Assembly (NCBI GenBank): GCA_036268875.1
Contig: DATATI010000083.1
Coordinates: 62,001 to 126,000 of the forward strand
Reading direction: 5' to 3'
Length of the DNA stretch: 64,000 bases
Source: Polyangia bacterium
GTDB taxonomy: Bacteria; Myxococcota_A; Polyangia; Fen-1088
This document shows positions 41,251 through 49,007 of this stretch, one piece after another (the first letter of the stretch is position 1; each line of letters starts with the position of its first letter). The notes under the pieces are model-generated. The model saw nothing but the letters and a program-made list of their open reading frames with translations, ran no database searches and was not told the origin of the DNA. The position numbers and the translations under genes are program-made.

Positions 41251-42029
41251 CGGATCATTCTTCAGCACCAACGACCCTGCTTTCACCCCGCGCCTGCCCG
41301 GCGCGAATCAACGGGACCTGCGCCGGCGCGCTGGTCTTGGCCGCGATAGTTCTCGCGGTGAGCCCCGCACGCGCCGACGACGCCGTGGTCCCCACGCCGT
41401 CCGGCAGCGCTTCCGTCCCGGCACCGCCCGGTAACAACCCGCCCCCCAATCACCGGCGCATTGACCACGCCGCGGTCCTGGCCGCAGCCTCCGCCGACGA
41501 GCCACCATTGGACGAGCTGCGCGCGGCGGCCACCGCACTGGTGCTGGCCGAGCCGGAGCGCGCGCGGTCGCTGCTGGCCCGGTCCGGCGCCGCCGGCTGG
41601 TTGCCTGAGGTGCGCGTGCGCGTCGACCGTCGCTTCGAGCGTGACGAGTCGCTGGACTACGGCCGCACGGCGGCCGATGTAACCGCGCCGGTCGGCATGG
41701 ACACGCACAACGACGTCAGGTACGAGGTTCGCGCCACGTGGGACCTGTCGCGCATCGTCTTCAATCCCGAGGAGCTGGGCGCCCACGCCCAGGCCCTGCG
41801 ACTGGCGGATATCCGGCGCGAAGTGGAGATGATGGTGGTACGGTTGGTGTTCGAACGCAGGCGCCTCAAGGCCGAGACCGCAACTTCCGATGCCCCCGAC
41901 GGTGCCCCCCGTCTGCGTCGAGAACTGAGGATTGAGGAAATTGAAGCCGAGCTGGATGCGCTGACGGCAGGAGCCTTTTCCAGCCCGCGAAATCATCGAT
42001 CACAACATGCGGCCAGCCAAAAACCGTGA
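41247..42029 (+). CDS. Exported protein, unknown, coupled to beta-propeller
   Basis: A 260-residue protein starting at the ATGA overlap with the propeller gene. A signal-like segment (ALVLAAIVLAVSPARA) is followed by a Pro/Asn-rich linker. The mature chain has VRYEVRATWDLSRIVFNPEELGAHAQA and a long basic helix (EVEMMVVRLVFERRRLKAE), reminiscent of outer-membrane efflux or porin end segments but not clearly assigned. The final 23 bases overlap the following PilZ gene. With the propeller it probably forms an envelope complex; function unknown. Confidence 0.72.
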   Translation: MTDHSSAPTTLLSPRACPARINGTCAGALVLAAIVLAVSPARADDAVVPTPSGSASVPAPPGNNPPPNHRRIDHAAVLAAASADEPPLDELRAAATALVLAEPERARSLLARSGAAGWLPEVRVRVDRRFERDESLDYGRTAADVTAPVGMDTHNDVRYEVRATWDLSRIVFNPEELGAHAQALRLADIRREVEMMVVRLVFERRRLKAETATSDAPDGAPRLRRELRIEEIEAELDALTAGAFSSPRNHRSQHAASQKP

Positions 42030-42447
42030 GCGAACCCAGGATGCACGCCAGCACCCGCGGTTCCAGGCTGACGTGCAGGTGTCGGTGGCCGTGGGCGATC
42101 GTAAGTTACCGGCCCGCACCCGGGATTTCTCGCGCTCCGGCCTGTGCCTGATCTCCTCCGAGGAGATCGCCCGCGAGACCAACGTCGCCATCGAGCTGGT
42201 GCTGTCGTTCGCCGCCGGCGGCGTCTCCGAACCGCTGCGCCTGCGCGGCCGCACCGTGTGGTGCACGGCGATGTTCGGTTCCTACCAGGTGGGCGTCATG
42301 TTCGTCGACATCAACGCCGAGCGCGCCCGTTATCTGGACATGTTCATGGGCCTCCTCGACGGCACCAACGGCGCTGACGATCCGCTGGACAACGAACGCG
42401 AGGACACCGACCGGCGAATCGATCCCGATGATCCGTTTCGTCCCTGA
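42007..42447 (+). CDS. PilZ-domain c-di-GMP-binding protein
   Basis: A 146-residue cytoplasmic protein, essentially one PilZ domain. The c-di-GMP motifs are complete: RQHPR (RxxxR) near residue 15 and DFSRSG (DxSxxG) about 25 residues later, followed by the strands VWCTAMFGSYQVGVMFVDI. An acidic tail (EREDTDRRIDPDDP) follows. It should bind cyclic di-GMP and act on a partner by direct contact. It overlaps the exported protein upstream and is followed 14 bases later by another PilZ gene. Confidence 0.9.
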   Translation: MRPAKNRERTQDARQHPRFQADVQVSVAVGDRKLPARTRDFSRSGLCLISSEEIARETNVAIELVLSFAAGGVSEPLRLRGRTVWCTAMFGSYQVGVMFVDINAERARYLDMFMGLLDGTNGADDPLDNEREDTDRRIDPDDPFRP

Positions 42448-42461
42448 GGCGCCGAAAGACC

Positions 42462-42881
42462 ATGGCCGCACCCAAGTCTTCCCCGCCGTCGCCACCGAAG
42501 CCGCCGCCCGCCGCGCGTCCGCGCCGCCAGCACCGCCGGCTGACCATCCGTATGTCCGCCGAGGTTCGCACCGCGCGCACCGTCTTCACCGCCACCACCC
42601 GCGATCTGTCGGCGGGGGGCGCCGGCATCATCTCGGATCGCGGGCTGACCGAAGGCGAGGAGATCGCGCTCGGCCTGTTTCTGGTGGTTGACGACGTCGA
42701 AGAGCAGATGCCGCCGTTGTGGGTGAAAGGCCGGGTGATGTGGGCCAGCGGCGAGCAACTGAACCAGCACACGGCCGGCGTGCGATTCAGCGGCGTCACC
42801 GACGAGCAGAAGAAATGGCTGGGCAAGGTGCTGTCGCAGCTGAACGATCCCGGCGCGACGCCGGCGCCCGATCGTCACTGA
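42462..42881 (+). CDS. PilZ-domain c-di-GMP-binding protein (second)
   Basis: A 139-residue protein with a Pro/Ala-rich N-terminal arm (about 20 residues) and one PilZ domain: RRQHRR provides the RxxxR site and RDLSAGGAGI the DxSxxG site, then LWVKGRVMWASGEQLNQHTAGVRF. It is divergent in sequence from the preceding PilZ protein, so this is not a recent duplication. Two intact binders in one transcript suggest two outputs or a heteromer. Its 3' end overlaps the convergent FAD-protein gene by seven bases. Confidence 0.9.
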   Translation: MAAPKSSPPSPPKPPPAARPRRQHRRLTIRMSAEVRTARTVFTATTRDLSAGGAGIISDRGLTEGEEIALGLFLVVDDVEEQMPPLWVKGRVMWASGEQLNQHTAGVRFSGVTDEQKKWLGKVLSQLNDPGATPAPDRH

Positions 42882-44437
42882 CCGGCGTTCGCCACGACGG
42901 CCTCGGCGATGCGGACGCCGTCCAGCGCCGCGCTGACGATGCCGCCGGCGAAGCCCGCGCCCTCGCCCGCCGGGTAAAGGCCCGCCACCGATGGTGATTG
43001 CAGCGACCGCGGATCGCGCAGGATGCGCAGGGGCGCGCTGGTGCGGGTCTCGGCGCCGACCAGCAGCGCGTCCGCATGCATGAAGGCCCGCAGGCGCGCG
43101 CCGATCCCGCGCAGGCCTTCACGCAACGCCGCGGCCACCAGCGGCGGCAAGACGGCGCGCAGATCGGCGGGAACAATCCCTGGACGATAGCTGCTGGCGG
43201 CGACCGTGTTGCTCGGGCGATCAGCGAGAAAATCTTCCAGCCGCTGCGCCGGTGCGCGCAACTGACCGCCGCCAGACTTCTCGGCCGCGGTTTCAATGGC
43301 GCGCTGAAAGTCGACGCCCGCCAGCGGACCAGCCGCGGCATCACCGAAGTCGTCGGGGTTGACCGTCACCACCAGGCCGGCATTGGCGAAGGGCGAATCG
43401 CGACGAGACAAGCTCATGCCGTTGACGACCAGACCGCCCGGCTCGGTTCCGGCGGGGACGATCCAGCCGCCCGGGCACATGCAGAAGCTATAGACGCCAC
43501 GTCCCTGTCCTTCCGACGTCAGCTCGTAAAATGCCGGCGGCAGCTTGGGATGGCCGGCGGCGCGGCCGTATTGAATCTCGTCGATCAAGGGTTGCGGGTG
43601 TTCGATGCGCACGCCGACGGCAATCCCTTTGCGCTCGATGGCCACACCGTCGCGTACCAGCCAGCGATAGACCGCCCGCGCAGAATGGCCGACCGCCAGC
43701 ACGACGACGTCGGCGGCGATCTCGTCGCCGTCCAGCAGGCGCAACGCTTTCACCCGGCGATTCTGGATGACCAAACCGCCGGCGGCCGTCTCGAAGCGAT
43801 AGTGAACGCCGTGCGCTTGCAGATGCTCGCGCAATGCCGTCAGCACCTTGGGCAACCGATTCGAGCCGACGTGTGGCCGCGATTCGCTCTCCACTTCCGC
43901 CGGCGCGCCGAAGCGGACCAGATCGGCCAGCACCGCGGCAATGCCGGAATGATCCTTTGAGCGCGTGTACAGCTTGCCGTCGGAGTACGTACCCGCCCCG
44001 CCCTCGCCGAAACAATAGTTCGACAGCGGGTTCAGTTGCCCGCGGTTGGCGAGCGCCAGATCGCGGCGACGCGGCTGCACGGGTTTGCCCAGCTCGACGA
44101 TCGTCGACGGCACGCCCGCTTCAAGCAAGCGTAGCGCTGCCCAGCTTCCAGCCGGACCCGAACCGACGATCGTCACCCGCGGCGTGGCCACCGACGGCGG
44201 CCACGCCAGCACCGCCCGCTGCGGCGCCGCCTCGTCGCTCAGCAACTGGCCGGCGCGCGCCACCGCCACGCGCAGGCGAAAGCCAAGCGGCCGCCCTTTG
44301 CGCGCGTCCAGCGAGCGCCGCAAAAGACGCCACGGCCCGACCGTGTCGGGCGCCCAACCGAGCGCGCGTGCCAGCCGCGGCTCCAGCGGATCGTCGGCGG
44401 CGTCGAGCGGCAGAAAGACTTCGACCAGTTCAGGCAT
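42875..44437 (-). CDS. FAD-dependent oxidoreductase (uncharacterised family)
   Basis: A 520-residue protein. An N-terminal alpha/beta part precedes the FAD-binding Rossmann motif VTIVGSGPAGSWAALRLLE (about residues 88-106). Then come NPLSNYCFGEGGAGTYSDGKLYTR, RPHVGSNRLPKVL, VVLAVGHSARAVYRWL, a Cys-containing GVYSFCMCPGGWIVPAG and the closing PAGEGAGFAGGIVSAALDGV, a set typical of the widespread family of large FAD-dependent proteins. The reaction is unknown. Next to it in the same direction, after 36 bases, lies the HExxH-YkgJ fusion gene upstream. Confidence 0.88.
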   Translation of the reverse strand: MPELVEVFLPLDAADDPLEPRLARALGWAPDTVGPWRLLRRSLDARKGRPLGFRLRVAVARAGQLLSDEAAPQRAVLAWPPSVATPRVTIVGSGPAGSWAALRLLEAGVPSTIVELGKPVQPRRRDLALANRGQLNPLSNYCFGEGGAGTYSDGKLYTRSKDHSGIAAVLADLVRFGAPAEVESESRPHVGSNRLPKVLTALREHLQAHGVHYRFETAAGGLVIQNRRVKALRLLDGDEIAADVVVLAVGHSARAVYRWLVRDGVAIERKGIAVGVRIEHPQPLIDEIQYGRAAGHPKLPPAFYELTSEGQGRGVYSFCMCPGGWIVPAGTEPGGLVVNGMSLSRRDSPFANAGLVVTVNPDDFGDAAAGPLAGVDFQRAIETAAEKSGGGQLRAPAQRLEDFLADRPSNTVAASSYRPGIVPADLRAVLPPLVAAALREGLRGIGARLRAFMHADALLVGAETRTSAPLRILRDPRSLQSPSVAGLYPAGEGAGFAGGIVSAALDGVRIAEAVVANAGQ

Positions 44438-44473: not shown

Positions 44474-45523
44474 TCAGCGACTGATGCCCACGCGTTGGCG
44501 GGCGCTCAAACAATGATTGCCCCCGGCGGCAAATTCACGACAGGTGCTGGGACGGTCTTCATAGATGCGACAGTGATAGCGCGAAGACGGTCTCGGGCGC
44601 GAATCGTCGGCTGTGGCCGCGTCGCCGGCGGGCGGCGTGTCGACGTTCAGGGCCGCGCAGCGTTCATTGTTGCGCAGGATCTCGAAGCGATACCCGCGCC
44701 GCACGATCAGCTCGGGCTGCTTCCAGACCACCGGATCACGCATGGACACGCTGACCACGTGATAGGCCTCGCGGCAGCAGGCGCCGCAGGTTTGACAGTC
44801 GACCGGCGGCTCCCATTTTTCGCAGGCGGCAAAATCCCGGCTGGTGCGGCCCGCGGAATCACTTTTCGCCGCGGCATTTTTTTGCCGGCAGCGCTCGACT
44901 GGCCGGCCGCGTCCGCCGACGTAAAGCCAGGCGCAAGAACCGCAGGTCTCATTCGCTGGTCCCAGGGCGAAACCCAGCGGATGTCTTTCAACCGACGCTC
45001 CGTCCAGCAACGACGCGGTGGCGGCCAGCGCCTGGCGCAAGGTCGAGATCCATGTCGCCGCGCTGGAGCCCTCCGTGGCCAACGCCGCGCGCCCGATCGC
45101 TGCGCCGGCGTCGCCGTGACGAAGGGGATCGTCGCCGATCAAATCGTAGAAACCGCGATACTCGGTGGTCGGAGCCATCAGTGCGCGCAGACCGAAAGGC
45201 TGGGCCAGATGCGCCTGCAGCCGCAGACAGGCGTGCTCTCGTTCGATGCCCGCTCCACCCGATACATCAAGCCCCCAATCCGGAAATGTCTGGCGGTCGG
45301 GGCCTTCGACAAACGCGTGGCACAATTCGTGGAAAACCAGCTGCGCAAAAGAGTCGTCGATATCGAGGATCTCTGGAATCCCGATGAATATACGGCCCTG
45401 CCCGTCACTGGAGGCGTAACTCTCCGGACCACGCTGTATTTCGAAACCGAGCGTGCGCGCCGCACTGGACCAGATTTGATCGATGGCGGCGCTGGACAGC
45501 GGACTGGGACGATCGCGTGACAT
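44474..45523 (-). CDS. HExxH metallopeptidase-like and YkgJ Cys-cluster fusion
   Basis: A 349-residue cytoplasmic protein. Residues 1-200 contain HELCHAFVEG with the zinc motif HExxH (65-69) and, about 27 residues later, EREHACL that could supply a third ligand. The middle has Cys pairs (CGSCAWLY, then CRQK). The C-terminal part has CQTCGACC, CAALN, CRIYEDRPSTCREFA and a final Cys, the pattern of YkgJ/UPF0153 iron- or zinc-binding clusters. I know no named family with this combination. It may be a metal-cluster-dependent peptidase or an oxidative-stress sensor; function is open. Confidence 0.72.
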   Translation of the reverse strand: MSRDRPSPLSSAAIDQIWSSAARTLGFEIQRGPESYASSDGQGRIFIGIPEILDIDDSFAQLVFHELCHAFVEGPDRQTFPDWGLDVSGGAGIEREHACLRLQAHLAQPFGLRALMAPTTEYRGFYDLIGDDPLRHGDAGAAIGRAALATEGSSAATWISTLRQALAATASLLDGASVERHPLGFALGPANETCGSCAWLYVGGRGRPVERCRQKNAAAKSDSAGRTSRDFAACEKWEPPVDCQTCGACCREAYHVVSVSMRDPVVWKQPELIVRRGYRFEILRNNERCAALNVDTPPAGDAATADDSRPRPSSRYHCRIYEDRPSTCREFAAGGNHCLSARQRVGISR

Positions 45524-45732
45524 CGGCTTTTCTCGCTACTTATCGCTGGAATTACCTGAACCACGGCCAAATCGTCTAAACATCTTTTTGTTATTTACAC
45601 TTCACAAACATCAAGAATATTTGACAAATCACCGAAGGAGGCCCTTGCATCCGGCCAGTAGAAGGGCCAGTCTAGCCGGTCCGTGGCAAAGATTCCGCCG
45701 CGGTCACCAACGAAACCTTGCGAGGTGGAGAC
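45524..45732. other. AT-rich divergent intergenic region
   Basis: A 209-base gap between the HExxH-YkgJ gene and the transglycosylase-like gene. The part 45575-45630 is clearly more AT-rich than the flanks and includes TTGACA at 45621-45626, but no matching -10 is spaced correctly. It probably holds both promoters and perhaps binding sites. No gene is seen. Confidence 0.6.
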
Positions 45733-46650
45733 GTGTTGCCTTCCCTGCAAAAGCTACCTTATGGTGCCGTGGCCGCTGTGGCGGGCTTCTTCGCTTTGCC
45801 GCTGTCGGCTCCCAACGCTGGCGTCAATTCTGTAAACACCACGACTGAAGAGATCGCCGCGGCCCCCAGCCCCGACAAGCAAAGCTCCGTCCAACTGAGC
45901 GGCGACGACAGCTGCATGGCCCGCACCATCTGCGCGATCAAAGAACGCATCCGCTGGCAGACGCCGGCGTGGACGCCCTCGCAGTGTCGTCGCATCGCCG
46001 GCGCCGTCAGCGCGTCGGCGAAAAAATACAATCTGAGCCCGACATTGATCCTGGCCGTCATGATCAACGAGAGCGACATGAACGAAAAAGCGTCGCGGGT
46101 CTATACACGCGACAACGAAATCTACGCCAAAGACAGCGGCCTGATGGCCATTCGTTGCTTGCTAGACAAGACTGATCACTGCACCAACGGCAACGTTCGC
46201 GGCATGGCGTGGAAGGACCTGATGGACCCGGTCACCAACGTCGAAGCCGGCGCGCGCGAGCTGGCGCACTGGCGTGACGGCGGCGGCATCACCCGCGTGA
46301 CCATCAACAAGCGAGACGCCCAGGGGCATCTGCAGCGCGTGACCAAGGACGTGCCTTGCCAGCACAAGAACCACGCCTTCTGGGCCCACTACAATCATGG
46401 CCCGCGTTATATCGACAAAGGGTATCCGCGCCACTACCCGCACCGCATCGCCGTGCTGGATCACGCGCTGGCCACGGTGATGAACCTGCCGGCGCCCGAA
46501 TTGACCGCCGGTCGCATTACCATTCACGATCCCGGCAAACGCGAACGCACCCCGGATCGCCCGATGGAACCGCGCTTCAAGAAGCTTTGCCACCAGATCA
46601 TGGACAGCGCGTCGTGCTCTCCGGTAGCCCTGAACGAACGCGCAAACTGA
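45733..46650 (+). CDS. Exported lytic-transglycosylase-like protein
   Basis: About 305 residues with a signal-like N-terminus (YGAVAAVAGFFALPLSAP). The middle matches the SLT/goose-lysozyme-like fold: SASAKKYNLSPTLILAVMINESDMNEKA with the catalytic Glu in INES, then DSGLMAIRCL and NVEAGARELAHW where the family usually has GLMQI and N-x-x-A-G-x-x-Y. Some positions differ, and two Cys pairs (CMARTIC, CLLDKTDHC) suggest disulfides. It could cut glycan strands or be a non-lytic relative. The start is GTG at 45733 after AGGTGGAG; TTG at 45718 is possible. Placed upstream of the flagellar genes but on the opposite strand. Confidence 0.72.
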   Translation: MLPSLQKLPYGAVAAVAGFFALPLSAPNAGVNSVNTTTEEIAAAPSPDKQSSVQLSGDDSCMARTICAIKERIRWQTPAWTPSQCRRIAGAVSASAKKYNLSPTLILAVMINESDMNEKASRVYTRDNEIYAKDSGLMAIRCLLDKTDHCTNGNVRGMAWKDLMDPVTNVEAGARELAHWRDGGGITRVTINKRDAQGHLQRVTKDVPCQHKNHAFWAHYNHGPRYIDKGYPRHYPHRIAVLDHALATVMNLPAPELTAGRITIHDPGKRERTPDRPMEPRFKKLCHQIMDSASCSPVALNERAN

Positions 46651-46704: not shown

Positions 46705-47586
46705 TTAGAGCTTGTCGACCAGGGACAGGCCGAAGCTGGCGGCGGAGGCGGTCAGGGTGGCGTCGAGAGCGTGGTTCGCCAGCGCCAAATTGGTGGCGCT
46801 CTCGAAGCTGTCGGCGTCCTGTTCGCGCGACAACGATGCCGTGGCGTCGACCTTCGCGCTGGCGGCGACCGTTTGCGCGGTCTGAAAGGCGTCCATCGAC
46901 GAACCGACCTGGGCCAGCGCATTGCCAACTTGGTGGGTGACCGCGTCCAGATTTCCCAGCGTGGCGCGGATGCTGTCGCCGTCGTTGCTCTTCAGCGCCG
47001 TCGACAGCGCCGACAGCGTGGCGAAAAGATCGGCGCCGCCGCCCGCGCCTTTCACCGCCACGTCGGCCCGAACCGACGCCGCCTCGGTCACGCCGGGGGC
47101 CACTTCGACCTGGCGCACGTTGCTGTCGCCCTGATAGTTCCCGGAGGCGTCAAAGGGCGGTTGTGAATCCTTGGTGCCGCCGAAAATATAGCGCCCGTTG
47201 AAGTCGGTGTTCATCAACGTCACCGCTTGCTTGTTCAGACTGTCCACCTCGGTGGCGGCGTTCTGGCGATCGGTGGCCGAATAACTGTCGTTGCTCATCT
47301 GCACGGTCAACTCGCGGACCCGGGCCAGCACGTTCGAGAGCTGCTGCAGCGAACTGTCCGCCACGCCCAGTTCGTCGTTGGCCTTGCCGGCGCCCGAGTT
47401 GACCGCGTCCAGGCGCGCCAGCGTGCTGCGGCCCTGAACGATCAAACCGGCCGCCGTCGGATCATCGCCCGGGTGCGTGACTCGCTGGCCGGTGGACGCC
47501 TCGTTCGACGCTTGCAGGACGCGATCGCGCGCCGTCATCGAGTTGCTGGCGGCCATGTCAAACATCATTCGTTCCGTTACACGCAT
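46705..47586 (-). CDS. flgL: Flagellar hook-filament junction protein FlgL (HAP3)
   Basis: A 293-residue flagellin-like protein forming the filament-side junction. The N-terminus MRVTERMMFDMAASNSMTARDR and ASTGQRVTHPGDDPTAA match the HAP3 D0/D1 helices, and the C-terminus DSFESATNLALANHALDAT gives the partner helix. The middle contains the FNGRYIFGGTKDSQPPFD motif typical of FlgL. It is the last gene of the flg run and follows flgK by 14 bases. Length is slightly under the E. coli protein (317). Export is by the flagellar type III system with FlgN as chaperone. Confidence 0.94.
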   Translation of the reverse strand: MRVTERMMFDMAASNSMTARDRVLQASNEASTGQRVTHPGDDPTAAGLIVQGRSTLARLDAVNSGAGKANDELGVADSSLQQLSNVLARVRELTVQMSNDSYSATDRQNAATEVDSLNKQAVTLMNTDFNGRYIFGGTKDSQPPFDASGNYQGDSNVRQVEVAPGVTEAASVRADVAVKGAGGGADLFATLSALSTALKSNDGDSIRATLGNLDAVTHQVGNALAQVGSSMDAFQTAQTVAASAKVDATASLSREQDADSFESATNLALANHALDATLTASAASFGLSLVDKL

Positions 47587-47600
47587 GGTGCTCCTCGTCC

Positions 47601-49007
47601 TTACTGAATGGCCAACAAGGTGTCGAGCATGCCGTTGGTGGTGGTGATGACCTTGCTGACCGCTTCGAAAGCTCGCTGGGCCTTGGTCATGTTCACCATC
47701 TCTTCGTCCAGGTTCACGCCGGACACCGATTCGCGCATCTGACTGAGATTGTCGGCGATGCTCTTGTCCTGATCCGAGATTGCCTGCGAAAGCTGCGCCT
47801 GCGCACCAAAGCCAGTAACGATGTTCTGGAACGCCGTCGTGGCGTTGGTGCCGGTGGACAGCGCCGTGTTCTCGGTGTTGATCAAGGCCTGCATGTTGCT
47901 GCTGTCGCCGGTGGCGCCGGGCGCCGACGCGGCTGCCAGCAGCGACGGGTTGGCCAGCAGACCGGCGTCGACGGAGATGGAGCTGGCCGCGCCGGCCGAC
48001 GTGGCGCCGACGGTGAACATCTGATGACCGGTGGTGCCGTCGGCGGCGAAACCCGCGCTGTGCACGGCATTGATCGCGTTCCCGAAATCAAAGGCCAGCG
48101 TGTCGATGCCGTTCTCCGCGCTGAGGATGGCGCCGTCGCGCGCGCCGATGCCGCCGCCCAGTTGACCGCCGATGGCGTTGCCAGCCAGGGTCACCGGACC
48201 GGTGCCGTCGGCGCGGGTCAATTGAACAGCCAGGTGGCCGCCGTTCGTCGGATCGGCGATGACCGACAGCTTGCCGGCTTTCTGCTCGCTGACCAGGGCG
48301 GCGCCGCCGGGCAGCGCCATCGAGACGTCGCCCTGATCGTTGGTCACCGGCACGGCGCCGGTCAACTGGCTCAGCTCGTCTTGCAGCTGCTGCCGCTGAT
48401 CCAGCAGATCGTTGGGCTGGGCGCCGGTGCTGCGGGCCATGCGGATCTGGGTGTTCAGGGCGGCCATGTTCGCCGCGTCCTGATTCACCTGCGTGACCGT
48501 GCCGGCCAGCTTGGCGTCCACGCCGTTGCGCACGTCCTCCAGCGAGGCTGACGTGCGGTTGAAGGTGCGGGCCAGGGCCTGCGCCGAAGCGACGGCCGCC
48601 TGTCGCAGACCCGAATCGTTCGGATTCTGAGCGACATCACGAAGGGCGGAATAAAACCCGCTGAGCGCTGCTGTCAGGCCGGTGCCGCCGTCGGGATCCA
48701 ACGCGGTCACGGCGTTCAGGGCGTCGCTTTGCGACGACGAGAAACCTTGGGCGGAGATCGCCGCCGGCATCTGGCGCTCGAGAAATTGATCGCGCGCCTG
48801 GGTGACCGACTGCACGCCGACGCCGCGGCCGATGAACGAAGTGCCGTCGAGATCGGTGGGCGTCAGCGCTTCCAGGTTGGCGGTCTGTCGGCTGTAACCG
48901 GGCGTGTTGACGTTGGCGATGTTCTGGCTGGCGGTGGCCGCGGCCGTGCGGTGCGCGTCCAGGCTGGTGCTGGCCTGCGAGAGGATCGAAAGCAGATCGG
49001 CGGCCAC
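47601..49007 (-). CDS. flgK: Flagellar hook-associated protein FlgK (HAP1)
   Basis: A 468-residue hook-side junction protein. The N-terminal helix region has ASQNIANVNTPGYSRQ and the typical FIGRGVGVQSVTQARDQFLERQ. The C-terminus SGVNLDEEMVNMTKAQ leads into the usual heptad helix ending MLDTLLAIQ. The domain between is shorter than in enterobacteria (547 residues total there), with a D2-like region (GDVSMALPGGAALVSEQKAG). It lies two bases after flgN and 14 bases before flgL in the transcription direction. Confidence 0.96.
   Translation of the reverse strand: MAADLLSILSQASTSLDAHRTAAATASQNIANVNTPGYSRQTANLEALTPTDLDGTSFIGRGVGVQSVTQARDQFLERQMPAAISAQGFSSSQSDALNAVTALDPDGGTGLTAALSGFYSALRDVAQNPNDSGLRQAAVASAQALARTFNRTSASLEDVRNGVDAKLAGTVTQVNQDAANMAALNTQIRMARSTGAQPNDLLDQRQQLQDELSQLTGAVPVTNDQGDVSMALPGGAALVSEQKAGKLSVIADPTNGGHLAVQLTRADGTGPVTLAGNAIGGQLGGGIGARDGAILSAENGIDTLAFDFGNAINAVHSAGFAADGTTGHQMFTVGATSAGAASSISVDAGLLANPSLLAAASAPGATGDSSNMQALINTENTALSTGTNATTAFQNIVTGFGAQAQLSQAISDQDKSIADNLSQMRESVSGVNLDEEMVNMTKAQRAFEAVSKVITTTNGMLDTLLAIQ

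Follow-up and report, generated by a model that had tools for sequence, protein, structure and literature searches.

What kind of protein carries a HExxH motif and a YkgJ-type cysteine cluster on one chain is the question raised by a reverse-strand gene in the window, the whole stretch of 64,000 nucleotides analysed here. The sequence-only reading had seen in it a zinc peptidase gated by metal or redox state, or a suicidal metal sensor. The gene and its parts are laid out as follows.

44474..45523, minus strand: coding sequence of 349 amino acids with an ATG start, holding a putative EpmC-like HExxH domain, a four-cysteine segment and a YkgJ/PF03692 cluster
44990..45505, minus strand: the putative EpmC-like N-domain, residues 7-178, from the 106-homologue alignment, profile comparison and predicted model
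45317..45331, minus strand: HELCH, residues 65-69, with the putative ligands H65 and H69
45272..45280, minus strand: D82-W83-G84, a D[WFY]G motif at the same spacing from HExxH as in EpmC
45236..45238, minus strand: E96, a glutamate in the next predicted helix of the model and candidate third metal ligand
44822..44944, minus strand: the four-cysteine segment CxxCAW...C...C (residues 194, 197, 212 and 234)
44510..44800, minus strand: the YkgJ/PF03692 domain, residues 242-338, with CxxCxxCC at 243-250 and further cysteines at 289, 318, 328 and 338

The PF03692 match in the window protein covers residues 242-333 with an E value of 1.1e-5 and 26.5 bits, above the Pfam cut-off of 23, which confirmed that a HExxH domain and a full YkgJ cluster share a single chain. 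An open reading frame overlapping the gene on the plus strand (44495-45520) was taken to be a shadow ORF. NCBIfam gave the protein no name and no meaningful match to any of its families, sequence searches of the PDB returned zero or chance matches, and no relative was found in the viral contigs searched. Homologues occur throughout Myxococcota, and the two-part chain recurs in dozens of Myxococcota genomes with 35-67% identity to the window protein, depending on the part, so the architecture is not a product of chance. A match to the protein was found in 29 of 59 genomes of a first set and, within the class, in 171 of 317 genomes, the weaker matches among these being other YkgJ proteins. A phylum-wide search of 282 genomes with the N-domain profile still gave a match in 86. 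Two relatives that bear a name are metagenome assemblies, and one of these is labelled Myxococcales.

The HExxH motif is conserved as well, so the sequence-only reading does not fall on the first of its own refuting conditions, a HExxH that varies among orthologues. H65, E66, H69, D54, D56, D57, D82, E96, T119 and R123 never vary in the 106 distinct N-domains, and the HExxH, invariant across homologues, is therefore not a chance motif; C68 within HELCH is a cysteine in 98 of them. Among 42 aligned fusions, all of which match PF03692, 12 cysteines are invariant (C194, C197, C212, C234, C243, C246, C249, C250, C289, C318, C328 and C338), and in a cruder alignment of the fused members a single row departs from this, at both C289 and C338. 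The extra cysteine pairs noticed earlier are thus real, formed by 194/197 together with 212 and 234, and the C-terminal part is, judging from the alignment, a PF03692 cluster with eight cysteines preceded by a separate four-cysteine site. It shares CxxCxxCC and the later cysteines with the YkgJ/CxxCxxCC family, including the FliB-type cysteine motif, but here it is joined to an enzyme-like domain and has CxxCAW...C...C in front of it; E. coli YcgN, by comparison, is a small standalone protein of 153 aa. We know of no general function for PF03692 proteins.

By simple motif calling, the YkgJ cluster is present in 55 of the 106 homologues and absent in 51, although at least one of the copies counted as standing alone (L118) retains the CxxCAW pair and is apparently truncated. 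Eight changes between the fused and standalone forms are needed on a quick tree, four of them forced by well-supported branches. One member of the window's own bacterial family (G002, L079:7215-7820) lacks the cysteine part and retains the FAD-enzyme neighbour described below. Six genomes (G332, G336, G359, G382, G441 and G456) hold two copies; in G332 and G382 one is fused and one standalone, the standalone copy falling in a clade nearer EpmC. About half of the homologues consist of the N-domain only, so a gate formed by the cysteine cluster is not indispensable. A metal or redox partnership between the two parts is plausible.

The nature of the N-domain was approached by profile comparison, which indicates that it is very probably homologous to EpmC/YfcM (PF04315; 4PDN, 3WTR), a non-haem iron enzyme that hydroxylates elongation factor P (EF-P). 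The motif HE[IL][CS]H(W)-x4-G-x7-D[WFY]G is common to the N-domain family and the E. coli protein, (nearly) invariant and with identical spacing, as seen in the sister clade (HEICHWLVAG-x7-DWGY) beside EpmC itself (HEISHWCIAG-x7-DFGY). When 106 N-domains were aligned with nine EpmC sequences by hhalign, a P value of 1.3e-6 and a probability of 91 were obtained, and the score of 46.3 exceeded those of all 200 column-shuffled EpmC controls that kept HExxH (best 36.6). The sister clade alone gave P 2.3e-7 over 48 columns reaching into the Glu helix, the similarity of the N-domain being confined mainly to 22-48 columns. The same N-domain profile gave P 5.3e-4 and a probability of 31 against SprT and P 0.034 against YbeY, and comparison with single E. 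coli proteins gave 2.1e-5 for EpmC, 6.8e-3 for YgjP, 7.3e-3 for MtfA, 8.1e-3 for SprT and 0.11 for LoiP. In blind PF04315 searches the best match in 29 relatives was an orthologue, and in 282 genomes 8 of the 19 sub-threshold matches fell on the family of the window protein. Per-member Pfam scans alone were indecisive, with a best E value of 0.0051 for EpmC in four members and of 0.039 for SprT in 15 of 56 members.

EpmC/YfcM is, by these comparisons, the closest relative found for the N-domain, and the family is EpmC-like, not EpmC. The window protein itself gave no match to PF04315, and the cut-off of 23.8 bits was reached by no family member, true EpmC genes apart (best 21.3 bits, in G382), so the family is not filed as EpmC. 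In both, HE[IL]xH is followed by an equally spaced G and D[WFY]G and then by a Glu-bearing helix, the domain has about 180 residues, and the host genome encodes a Lys-type EF-P and EpmA. The loop before the Glu helix is, however, about 5-8 residues shorter in the N-domain family, the second-shell Asp105 of EpmC is not kept, and a C-terminal cysteine domain occurs in about half of the family while E. coli EpmC has none and none was found reported for EpmC. Judged by sequence, the fused protein is a conserved myxobacterial protein that appears to combine a distant relative of the EF-P hydroxylase with a cysteine-rich domain. True EpmC genes (166-206 bits) were found in 8 of 282 Myxococcota genomes (L154-L161, in families f41 and f35). 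The f41 genomes among them are without a strict EpmA match, and G450 and G481 are without epmA beside efp. None of the eight carries the family of the window protein, against about 2.4 expected, numbers too small to count as mutual exclusion.

Taken together, these results make the protein most likely an enzyme of an EpmC-like family that uses non-haem Fe(II) and O2 to hydroxylate a protein and carries a fused cysteine domain of the Fe-S type; we assign this reading a probability of about 0.5. Within it, Fe(II) hydroxylase chemistry is somewhat more likely than not. The iron would be held by H65, H69 and E96 as a 2-His-1-carboxylate site. E. coli EpmC binds its metal through H59, H63 and E98, D105 being a second-shell residue; it functions with Fe(II) and is made more active by NADPH, further components being thought necessary (PMC4231759). 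The register between E96 and E98 is ambiguous by one helical turn in the alignment, which is the least secure point in assigning the ligands. With E96 on E98, Q103 replaces D105; with E96 on E95, the register that hhalign favours, E-x4-[RK]-x-Q-A is aligned and C99 replaces E98.

The cysteine part probably holds an Fe-S centre, which is the natural guess by analogy with FliB, whose related CX4CX3CC motif binds [4Fe-4S] and which also has eight conserved cysteines (PMC8598068). From such a centre electrons might pass to the iron for O2 activation, a role as electron relay to which we give slightly less than even odds. In the window's bacterial family the relay may in turn be fed from NAD(P)H by the adjacent FAD enzyme. 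The neighbouring genes on either side are the following.

42875..44437, minus strand: FAD-dependent oxidoreductase (PF21688), a possible electron donor encoded 36 bp downstream in the same direction
45718..46650, plus strand: SLT transglycosylase gene, divergent and conserved beside the gene in the same-family loci examined (context only)
46705-47586, minus strand: FlgL, about 1.2 kb upstream of the gene
47601-49007, minus strand: FlgK

The PF21688 gene adjoins the gene in all seven same-family relatives examined, and this neighbour is restricted to that one bacterial family (f1). Two adjoining PilZ-domain genes lie at 42007-42881 on the plus strand, convergent with the FAD gene, and their homologues are found near the gene in same-family relatives. 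No neighbour common to the whole family was found.

The substrate would be a translation-linked protein. EF-P is the first candidate, because the host encodes a Lys-type EF-P, which EpmA would modify, and lacks a canonical EpmC: its efp has a KPGKG loop with epmA adjacent, and no EpmC above the PF04315 cut-off was found in this genome. Even so, we regard EF-P as a candidate substrate that is less likely than not, since the strict presence of EpmA does not track the family (odds ratio 0.91, p 0.80, at a threshold that misses diverged epmA genes sitting beside efp). EpmA co-occurrence was accordingly discarded as proof of an EF-P substrate. EpmB co-occurrence was also set aside, as the model does not tell EpmB apart from the remaining lysine aminomutases in these genomes and gave, in the host's own genome, lysine-aminomutase-like matches only, below the cut-off. 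In family f46 efp precedes the gene by about 2.5 kb on the same strand, and a TPR gene separates the two; in three of these loci (L194, L195 and L197) the order along one strand is efp, the TPR gene, then a tRNA-like stretch and finally a divergent member (HEMIH, HELVH or HEMVH). In the f46 members epmA was not seen beside efp.

The same observations bear on the alternative that the EpmC-like hydroxylase modifies another protein instead of EF-P, for instance a ribosomal one, while its cysteine domain serves for substrate binding or metal loading and not as an electron relay. The missing association with strict EpmA fits this reading, as does the gene order in three bacterial families (f14, f17 and f24), where the gene precedes rpsB in the same orientation, and Pfam names PF03692 only as putatively metal-chelating. 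The rpsB link is, however, limited to those three families and may reflect inherited gene order, and no substrate link is shown for any candidate; we judge this reading rather unlikely, though it fares best among the alternatives. Many f14 genomes (L074, L078, L080, L082, L086, L087 and others) carry the standalone form 0-300 bp ahead of rpsB and in the same orientation, and it is found near rpsB in f17 and f24 too.

Slightly less likely still is a cytosolic zinc metallopeptidase of the minigluzincin, SprT or IrrE kind, whose cysteine-rich tail would bind zinc or an Fe-S centre for regulation or substrate binding. The pattern HExxH...E is the gluzincin signature, and an N-domain model built from three sequences (pLDDT 71, pTM 0.74) shows one helix and three strands followed by the helices that carry HELCH and E96, the order found in the SprT, IrrE and selecase metallopeptidases; the whole-chain model, also from three sequences, was poor (pLDDT 50). 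Structure comparison with VIA gave ArdC at Z 5.8 and IrrE, SPRTN and selecase at Z 4.5-4.7, but all scores lie below 8, indeed below 6, and the HExxH oxygenase ChlB (8s5f) also overlaps weakly at Z 3.6. The model thus predicts a generic HExxH (zincin-like) arrangement common to peptidases and HExxH oxygenases, so the fold alone cannot separate the two. Foldseek returned no match below 0.001 with this model. The YfcM entries 4PDN and 3WTR were not among the VIA matches listed, which says nothing on their absence. YfcM has a YbeY-like fold. The alpha-ketoglutarate-dependent oxygenases of RiPP pathways, to which ChlB belongs, likewise carry HExxH, but the N-domain has no meaningful NCBIfam match and a RiPP precursor context was not seen here.

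The choice between peptidase and hydroxylase accordingly falls to the profiles. The SprT matches favour a peptidase, yet they stay short of the SprT family cut-off (the best member E value and the profile P being those given above), and EpmC was a far better match in every profile test, IrrE and selecase having been compared by fold only. With the N-domain profile clearly closer to EpmC than to SprT, YgjP, MtfA, LoiP or YbeY, the zinc peptidase of the sequence-only reading is not upheld. The suicidal metal sensor loses ground on the same tests and is further opposed by the standalone N-domains.

A flagellin-modifying enzyme related to FliB, suggested by FlgL and FlgK upstream and by the similar cysteine motif, is very improbable and was rejected, because flgL and flgK homologues were found in none of the same-family loci examined, several of which reach beyond the SLT neighbour, and the family is widespread without a common neighbour and with no other FliB-like part.

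The EpmC-like hydroxylase fused to a cysteine domain bears on a gap in the biology of EpmC itself, whose electron source and further components were left unresolved by the structural work (PMC4231759). A bolder claim, which we hold to be speculative and unlikely as a whole, is that the family is a hitherto unnoticed branch, in myxobacteria, of the EF-P-type hydroxylases with the electron donor in the same chain, and that, by the Rosetta-stone argument, YkgJ-family Fe-S proteins would be the missing reductase component of protein hydroxylases like E. coli EpmC. The fusion of an EpmC-like domain with PF03692 joins the question of PF03692 function to that of the EpmC electron source, and both can be tested with one protein. 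If true, the finding would add to a small hydroxylase family a branch widespread in Myxococcota and unrecognised here by Pfam and NCBIfam.
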